The translations under genes and the position numbers were made by a program. Positions 40,194 to 61,162 of a stretch of DNA of 64,000 nucleotides are shown piece after piece. Under the pieces are notes generated by a model, which had not been told where the DNA came from, did no database searches, and was given only the letters and a program-made list of their open reading frames with translations. Source of the stretch: Streptomyces kanamyceticus. GTDB taxonomy: Bacteria > Actinomycetota > Actinomycetes > Streptomycetales > Streptomycetaceae. The number at the start of each line of letters is the position of its first letter. The stretch's first letter is position 1. Location of the stretch: contig NZ_CP023699.1 of the NCBI RefSeq assembly GCF_008704495.1, positions 3,844,001-3,908,000 on the forward strand, written 5' to 3'.

Positions 40194-40314
40194 ATTCAGC
40201 AGCGTACGGACTGAATCGCCAGGTGTCACGGGTAGATCTGCCCCGGACCACTTACCGCGACCGCGCCAGGGGCCCGGGGAGCCCGGCCCCCACCGGGCCG
40301 CAGCCGCCCGCGCT

Positions 40315-40433
40315 CCCGAGGGACGTGGGGGTATGTGCGAACGGAGCACAGTGGAGACCGGGGCAAGGAAGCAAGGCCAGTGGCCTCCGCCCCGGGATGG
40401 CGAGTACGCACATACCCCCGCGGCCCCGCCCCC
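40315..40433. repeat. Structured repeat, copy A (divergent copy)
   Basis: Intergenic, between hutH and the GGDEF gene (286 bp without a gene). GGGGGTATGTGCG (40327-40339) and CGCACATACCCCC (40407-40419) are perfect inverted arms 67 bases apart, flanked by GACGT and GCGGCCCCGCCCC exactly as in copies B (44034) and C (57047). The loop shares only short blocks (CGGAGCAC, GCAAGG, GGCGAG) with them, so this copy is old or of another subtype. Confidence 0.75.
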
Positions 40434-40479
40434 AAGACGAACCCAAGGCACAGACCCCAGCCCAAAGGAAACCCGCCAG

Positions 40480-43908: not shown

Positions 43909-44150
43909 GCCCCTCGGCGCCGGGGGCTGTGCCCACCCTTCCCCAAGCTCTCGGCTCCGCTCGAGCAGGGGAGACCCCACTCGCCCTGCGGCACGATTGC
44001 CCACAGCAGAGCGCGCCCGCAGCCGCCATCCGGCCCGAGGGGACGTGGCGGTATGTCCGCCCGGAGCACTGGGGGCCACGAGCCGAGGTGCCCAAAAGGT
44101 GGCAAGGCTCTGGGACGGCGAGGACGGACATACCGCCGCGGCCCCGCCCC
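43909..44150. repeat. Composite structured repeat, copy B
   Basis: Fills most of the 430-bp gene-free gap between cya and birA. The left block (43909 to about 43990) reads GCCCCTCGGC, GGGGGCTGTGCCCACCC, CCCCAAGCTC and TCGAGCAGGGGAGACC, as in copy C. After a variable linker, the right block (44034-44150) has perfect 13-bp arms GGCGGTATGTCCG (44047-44059) and CGGACATACCGCC (44125-44137) around a 65-base core with an inner GAGCC/GGCTC stem. The rest of the gap (43737-43908) shows no gene and no clear signal. Confidence 0.85.
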
Positions 44151-50579: not shown

Positions 50580-50713
50580 CTGGGGCTCCGCCCCAGACCC
50601 CGCTCCTCAAACGCCGGAGGGGCTGGATTTTCGCCCCGCCGGGCTGAGTACTCGCTGGTCGGGCTGAGTCGAATACGTGCCGGGCCGAGCTGGATGATCC
50701 AGCTCGGCCCGGC
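50580..50713. terminator. Hairpins after the carboxylase alpha gene
   Basis: CTGGGGC-TCC-GCCCCAG (50580-50596) is a 7-bp hairpin 63 bases after the stop, joined to CCTCAAACGCCGGAGGGGC, a dispersed element I know from many Streptomyces intergenic regions. A much stronger hairpin follows: arms GCCGGGCCGAGCTGGA (50679-50694) and its exact complement (50698-50713), 16 bp with a 3-base loop. These are the likely transcription stop. Confidence 0.7.
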
Positions 50714-56910: not shown

Positions 56911-57162
56911 GCCCCTCGGCAACGGGGGCTGTGCCCACCCTTCCCCAAGCTCTCGACTTCGCTCGAGCAGGGGAGACCCCACTCGCCCTGCGGAACATCT
57001 GCCCACAGCGGCGGAACCCCCACCGGCCCGCAGGCGCCGAACCGGCCCGAGGGGACGTGGCGGTATGTCCGCCCGGAGCACTGGTGGCCACGAGCCGAGG
57101 TGCCCAAAGTGTGGCAAGGCTCTGGGACGGCGAGGACGGACATACCGCCGCGGCCCCGCCCC
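56911..57162. repeat. Composite structured repeat, copy C
   Basis: Fills the 348-bp gap between PNP and the phosphomutase. The left block (56911 to about 56995) nearly matches copy B; after a linker the right block (57047-57162) has perfect 13-bp arms at 57059-57071 and 57137-57149 with a 65-base core that differs from copy B at only a few positions. An inner GAGCC/GGCTC stem is kept. The remaining 60 bp before the phosphomutase start show nothing obvious beyond its ribosome site region. Confidence 0.85.
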
Positions 57163-57222
57163 ACATCCGAACCCAAGGCGCACCAGCCAGGACGAAACCC
57201 GCACACGAGAGGCTGAAGACAC

Positions 57223-60997: not shown

Positions 60998-61162
60998 GGG
61001 GCGCGGAGAACTGCGCGAATCCCCGGGTGACTCGCGCCTGACGTGGGCAGTGGGCCATGGGCCAAGGGGCGCGGGGAACTGCGCGAATCCCCGGGTAGCT
61101 CGCGCCTGACGTGGGCAGTGGGCCATGGGCCAAGGGGCGCGGGGAACTGCGCGACCGGCCCC
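60998..61162. repeat. 68-bp tandem repeat built on the REP-like element
   Basis: Two full 68-bp units (60998-61065 and 61066-61133) differ at only a few bases, with a third truncated copy (61134-61162). Each unit starts GGGGCGCGGGGAACTGCGCG and ends in GGGCCATGGGCC, itself a palindrome. The array fills about half of the 323-bp gap before deoC; the rest (61163-61236) shows nothing clear. Confidence 0.85.

Follow-up and report, generated by a model that had tools for sequence, protein, structure and literature searches.

What maintains a hairpin that recurs between the genes of Streptomyces, and what spreads it? Within a 64,000-nucleotide stretch of DNA from Streptomyces kanamyceticus (hereafter the window; bases 3,844,001-3,908,000 of a 10.13 Mb single-contig genome), three intergenic sequences, referred to here as copies A, B and C, are each bounded by inverted repeats. 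A first-pass annotation, made without database searches, had claimed that each copy carries two perfect 13-base arms, that two arm positions differ between copy A and the other two copies with matching changes in their partners, and that the paired structure itself is maintained, whether as RNA, as a DNA hairpin or as a protein site. It knew of no named Streptomyces element with such a consensus, and proposed both a covariance model search of Streptomyces genomes and a covariation test.

Here we describe a family of hairpins that is real, structurally constrained and widespread in Streptomyces, and that resembles REP, BIME and REPIN elements in kind. The combination of up to 40 copies per genome with strong compensatory change makes the structural code of the hairpin readable from natural variation, and poses the question of what spreads such a family without a Y1 transposase. 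These hairpins lie beside the genes of antibiotic producers, where they could affect transcript ends, genome assembly and annotation.

Structure of the element

Copies A, B and C are all intergenic, and the coordinates and spacers (65 or 67 bases) of their perfect 13-base arms agree with those first given. The two compensated C/G swaps that separate the arms of copy A from those of copies B and C are present as claimed, and the flanks GACGT and GCGGCCCCGCCCC are kept in all three copies. The features within the window are as follows.

40317..40432, + strand: copy A (A-type); arms 40327-40339 and 40407-40419, spacer 67
44036..44150, + strand: copy B (B-type); arms 44047-44059 and 44125-44137, spacer 65
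44039-44042 and 44142-44145, + strand: feet of copy B (GGGG and CCCC, respectively), with an A.G mismatch at 44043/44141
57048..57162, + strand: copy C (B-type); arms 57059-57071 and 57137-57149, spacer 65
40288..40303, + strand: left-flank motif CCCCACCGGGCCGCAG, common to many copies
57018..57033, + strand: left-flank motif CCCCACCGGCCCGCAG
40438..40451, + strand: right-flank motif CGAACCCAAGGCAC
57168..57181, + strand: right-flank motif CGAACCCAAGGCGC
43926..44010, + strand: adjoining repeat module upstream of copy B, GCTGTGCCCACCC ... GCCCACAGC
56928..57010, + strand: adjoining repeat module upstream of copy C, the same as at copy B

The stem exceeds 13 bp: the helix containing the arms comprises 22 pairs in all. 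In it GGGG-A-CGUGGSGGUAUGUSCG is matched to the 3′ arm, interrupted by an A.G mismatch and including one U.G pair, and the last two of the 22 pairs lie beyond a second mismatch. The foot carries a run of three G's in copy A versus four in copies B and C. Most copies of the family measure ∼112-122 nt, typically ∼115 nt.

Copies were compared in two alignments, A1 (37 copies from the S. kanamyceticus genome and three named relatives) and A3 (62 copies from across the genus), and in a palindrome scan that returned 331 matches on both strands, from which 157 reverse readings and 14 unorientable matches were omitted to leave 160 oriented elements; the scanner requires at least 15 of 17 pairs, which biases its paired percentages upwards. 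Both alignments have a single architecture on the + strand, in which a 5′ foot (RAGGGG) is followed by the A.G mismatch (A opposite G, in 142/160 elements), CG, a U.G pair (117/160), a variable mid-stem, a second mismatch that is mostly C.A, and two more pairs, the outer of which occurs as G-C, C-G and A-U in A1. An internal loop (GGA or GCAGC opposite GA) and a variable inner part of ∼50 nt complete the element, together with a 3′ foot that reads CGGCCCCG(C/A)CCC in A1 and A3. The flanks are partly common among copies, the left resembling CCCCACCGGCCCGCAGCCGC and the right, near the 3′ foot, resembling CGAACCCAAGGCGC. The module adjoining copies B and C is a second, hairpin-like repeat.

Conservation of the fold

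Within the three copies of the window alone, the two swaps amount to one divergence between two subfamilies, and wider data are needed. Covariation was measured against shuffles on A1 and A3. Among the 62 genus-wide copies of A3, 12 of 23 pairs have two-sided changes, 97.9% of cells pair, two-sided changes occupy 133 cells (40.4 in shuffles) and the score is 0.288 (0.096 in shuffles); none of 500 shuffles reached any of five measures, and sliding the partner columns by 1-3 lowered pairing to 40-52%, with loss of the signal. For A1 the paired cells amount to 98.0%, and 47 cells of two-sided change are spread over five pairs; no shuffle out of 500 reached four of the measures, and 57/500 reached the other, the number of pair types. 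The folded shape is kept in this family while the sequence changes, as the first-pass annotation had proposed. Of the two positions that it named, one (pair 22/97 of A1) is the weakest pair among close relatives, being unpaired in 15/37 copies; the claim of covariation rests more securely on the other pairs.

The strand that folds

A G.T pair on one strand corresponds to A.C on the opposite strand. In the 56 distinct stems found among the 160 elements, variable positions 1-16, less the fixed U.G pair, contain 33 G.T or T.G versus 2 A.C, a count that omits stem position 17, where shorter stems have the fixed C.A mismatch. The stem columns of A3 contain 61 G.T versus 2 A.C in 59/62 sequences, with the fixed U.G pair included and three sequences with unequal arms left out. 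The C.A mismatch at position 17 is T.G on the other strand and points the opposite way; when this position is counted too, the totals become 34 versus 34. We take the variable positions to be the informative ones. Covariance model scores for the + reading far exceed those for the − reading (112 versus 26 bits in one example), partly since the model was built on the + strand. The wobble asymmetry at variable positions favours a single strand that folds over a protein site in duplex DNA, with one fixed position speaking against it. One particular strand thus seems to fold and, on balance, selection acts on the folded + strand, as RNA or as single-stranded DNA.

Distribution and copy number

Further copies exist in number. 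BLAST with copy B gave 39 matches in the S. kanamyceticus genome (itself included; E<1e-8), far above chance, and copy A retrieved A-type copies from the same genome. Covariance model R2 identified 40 copies there (14 A-type, 23 B-type and 3 divergent), none of them outside 1.99-8.25 Mb, so that the outer 1.9-2 Mb at each end of the 10.13 Mb sequence is empty. Across Streptomyces, model R1 matched at least 63/392 genomes, both positives and copy numbers being lower bounds with nine candidates scored per genome. R2, with 12 candidates scored per genome and hence again as lower bounds, matched at least 116/293 genomes in an order-level draw (with positives in two of nine genera) and at least 10/296 in a class-level draw, all of them Streptomyces (one of 114 genera). 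When 150 candidates were scored, eight genomes had 9-40 R2 matches: 40 in S. kanamyceticus and 9-31 in the seven others, a few of those in G128 being two readings of a single palindrome. Hosts recovered by an exact-pattern scan were S. huasconensis (5 stretches), S. atriruber (1) and Streptomyces sp. G44 (10), the last with tandem copies spaced 218-223 bp.

No match to the element was found in a phage collection or in viral contigs, and phage cargo was rejected. Plasmid cargo was likewise not supported: 18 Streptomyces plasmid records match, each only within part of the module adjoining copy B. A known RNA family was also rejected, as nothing exceeded an Rfam gathering score, with no matches across the window and, among 16 loci searched at E<=1, one sub-threshold match, outside the element; a separate Rfam search gave one sub-threshold match, a chance similarity in the adjoining module. 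Open PMC papers yielded no description of the hairpin family, which is apparently undescribed; of the three outcomes that the first-pass annotation named as refuting it, an absence of further copies and an absence of covarying pairs beyond chance did not occur, and for the third, identity with a known repeat or MITE, these searches gave no match, but the family's general kind, interspersed palindromic repeats, is familiar. Hairpins in G018 (L177) combine the same feet with a longer stem of unrelated sequence, which suggests that the models miss part of a wider superfamily.

Turnover at fixed sites and paired copies

Copies amplify within lineages: for 108/140 elements the nearest relative lies within the same genome, versus a mean of 5.6% and a maximum of 12.9% in shuffles. 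Between identical gene probes at the copy A site, S. kanamyceticus has 269 nt with the element and the relative G247 has 64 nt without it; G093, G163, G161 and G280 also lack an element there (G081 is unreadable across the site). At the copy B site, elements occur in three of six readable genomes, namely S. kanamyceticus and, in the same orientation but from another subfamily, G280 and G161, with none in G093, G247 or G163. Among 26 relatives readable at the copy C site, G009 has an element of another subfamily in the same orientation, G018 has a hairpin whose feet and left flank agree but whose stem is unrelated, probably a distant relative of the family, and the palindrome scanner found no element in the others. 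The presence and the type of an element vary at a given gene pair, whether through insertion and loss, through conversion, or through both; the same-orientation elements at the copy B and C sites are as compatible with old insertions that conversion has homogenised as they are with repeated insertion. Short versions (GAGGGGACG-GACAT-CGGCCCC) also occur at the copy B site of G280 (L252), in tandem with the left-flank motif and adjoining the full element, as though a deletion had removed the hairpin between its feet.

Ten pairs of copies in S. kanamyceticus lie 155-302 bp apart, all head-to-head and each consisting of one A-type and one B-type copy; because the elements are related to one another, binomial values for this arrangement cannot be taken as strict probabilities. 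A comparable head-to-head pair is present in G297. The members of an eleventh inverted pair, both B-type, are 2.7 kb apart, and a carrier transposon between them was not supported by the open reading frames listed for that interval.

Gene context

Using a composition-based gene finder made for this study, neighbours were called on both sides of 128 of the 160 distinct elements (32 lack one or both calls). Of these 128, 45 lie between convergent and 18 between divergent genes, while 39 have both genes along the direction of the element and 26 have both against it. A same-strand gene precedes 84/128, so that on the folding strand the ends of genes are preferred, which favours a role in RNA; the remaining 44/128, which have no same-strand gene upstream, are awkward for such a function. 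The elements prefer gene ends but have no fixed link to them.

Comparison with known repeat systems

REP sequences and the BIME mosaics that contain them are intergenic palindromes, present in many copies, in which mismatches mark the strand and inverted pairs occur (PMC8266576 and PMC3733652, in the portions available). The hairpin family shares with REP/BIME elements and their transposase TnpAREP (RAYT), as these are described there, an intergenic location, multiple copies, a mismatch-marked strand and inverted pairs, and the available part of PMC8266576 reports that the bulge of the E. coli REP is required by its transposase. The ten head-to-head pairs of S. kanamyceticus, with an inner module, have the arrangement of a BIME. 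However, the hairpins measure ∼115 nt, versus 20-50 nt for REPs, and have RAGGGGACG at the foot (A1 and A3) instead of the GTAG of GTAG REPs, whose link to a Y1 transposase is also absent.

No Y1 transposase (PF01797) was found in the S. kanamyceticus genome. Among order-level genomes, it is present in 39/116 element-positive versus 55/177 element-negative genomes (p=0.70), a comparison that assumes the same draw of 293 genomes in both searches, and in nine of the 41 genomes whose 12 scored candidates all matched. A REP driven by a Y1/RAYT transposase was rejected on both grounds. Since tag, length and Y1 link all fail to correspond, the family lacks the defining features of REP families that were tested.

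REPINs, according to the available text of PMC3116915, consist of a variable spacer flanked by two conserved ends in inverted orientation, form a long hairpin with compensatory changes, and also occur in tandem arrays. Conserved inverted ends, a variable spacer and compensatory changes are likewise found in the hairpin family, but its arms are not REP palindromes, being on inspection not self-complementary (A1 and A3), and the S. kanamyceticus genome has no RAYT. CGTC-tagged REPs have no known dedicated transposase and many of their families favour heterodimers, two points of likeness to the hairpin family; they have been described from five phyla, Actinobacteria not among them, and they carry an unpaired CGTC tag at one end and a loop of 4-5 bases (all from the accessible portion of PMC3733652). 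The hairpin family has neither: its minus-strand ACGTC lies mostly inside the paired foot, and its inner part is ∼50 nt. That portion of PMC3733652, which surveys REP families broadly, mentions neither Streptomyces nor Actinobacteria. ERIC, NEMIS, Ype and Efa are intergenic repeats able to form RNA hairpins (PMC1590033, as far as available), a likeness by description only, in hosts that differ from those of the hairpin family.

A proposed mobile hairpin and its alternatives

The reading we favour, with confidence somewhat short of even, takes the family to be a non-autonomous interspersed hairpin element, amplified within lineages of Streptomyces and working in the manner of REP, BIME and REPIN elements. 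Its recognised form would be the folded + strand, with a foot GAGGGG-A-CG containing the A.G mismatch, a compensating stem, the second mismatch (mostly C.A), an internal loop that is small and conserved (GGA/GA or GCAGC/GA), and an unconstrained inner part. A trans-acting protein would recognise the foot, the mismatches and the internal loop of the single strand, and this putative protein would spread units of ∼115-210 bp through intergenic DNA, either alone or in head-to-head pairs of unlike type. The reading draws on the observed structure, the wobble at variable positions, the copy number, the genome-specific amplification, the presence and absence at fixed sites, and the pairs. What we infer is that single-stranded DNA is the active form, that spread involves transposition and not merely gene conversion, and that a mobilising enzyme exists, as well as its nature. 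Against the reading stand the lack of a Y1 transposase in S. kanamyceticus and of a Y1 association in 293 genomes, the same-orientation elements at the copy B and C sites, the preference for positions after a same-strand gene, and the fixed C.A mismatch. No exact ends were established, and no target duplication was seen in the shared flanks or at the copy A site.

Integron attC sites, in which structure is kept above sequence and one strand is recognised via unpaired bases, bear a likeness to the hairpin family. A more specific proposal, that these hairpins are mobile DNA recognised as a single strand by shape (purine mismatch, second mismatch and internal loop), with no sequence tag, and moved by an enzyme other than Y1/RAYT, is possible but on present indications unlikely.

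The best-surviving alternative, doubtful yet still a serious contender, is a structured RNA: a + strand hairpin that acts in transcripts, whether by stabilising mRNA 3′ ends, as a site of processing or as a small RNA bound by protein, and that has spread as a repeat. It would explain the same wobble asymmetry, the internal loop is purine-rich in a manner typical of RNA, and the excess after same-strand genes and between convergent genes accords with it. RNA-seq of S. coelicolor found that 3′ UTR stem-loops yield abundant fragments, probably decay intermediates according to the authors (PMC4681348, in the part available), an observation on stem-loops generally. Against such an RNA stand the elements that follow no same-strand gene, the head-to-head pairs, in which one member is antisense to the other, the shared flanks, which by eye contain no evident promoter-like motif, and the variation in presence between species at the same gene pair. 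The mobile single-stranded DNA hairpin is narrowly preferred.

A terminator-like or DNA-architecture element (a site of transcription end, or for gyrase or a nucleoid protein) appears improbable: the excess between convergent genes and the confinement of all 40 S. kanamyceticus copies to the interior of the genome fit it, but no T-run follows the stem in inspected copies, a terminator needs neither conserved mismatches nor an internal loop, every gene arrangement occurs, and presence differs among species at the same gene pair. To a conventional MITE, whose double-stranded terminal inverted repeats would be the substrate of a DDE transposase, we give equally little credence, for despite inverted ends, a variable interior, small size and many copies, neither the wobble asymmetry at variable positions nor the conserved A.G mismatch is expected of duplex ends, and no target duplication was seen at the sites compared.

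Other repeats in and around the window

Two further repeats were noted. On the minus strand at 60998-61147 of the window, GTTCCCCGCGCCCC occurs three times at a spacing of 68 bases, in one case with a mismatch, and the same sequence is present between genes at the copy B site in relatives. At 50603 (minus strand) and 50808 (plus strand) lie two sequences close to CAGCCCGTCCGGCGTTTGAGGAC, in inverted arrangement; in several relatives this repeat also occupies the intergenic space at the copy C site.
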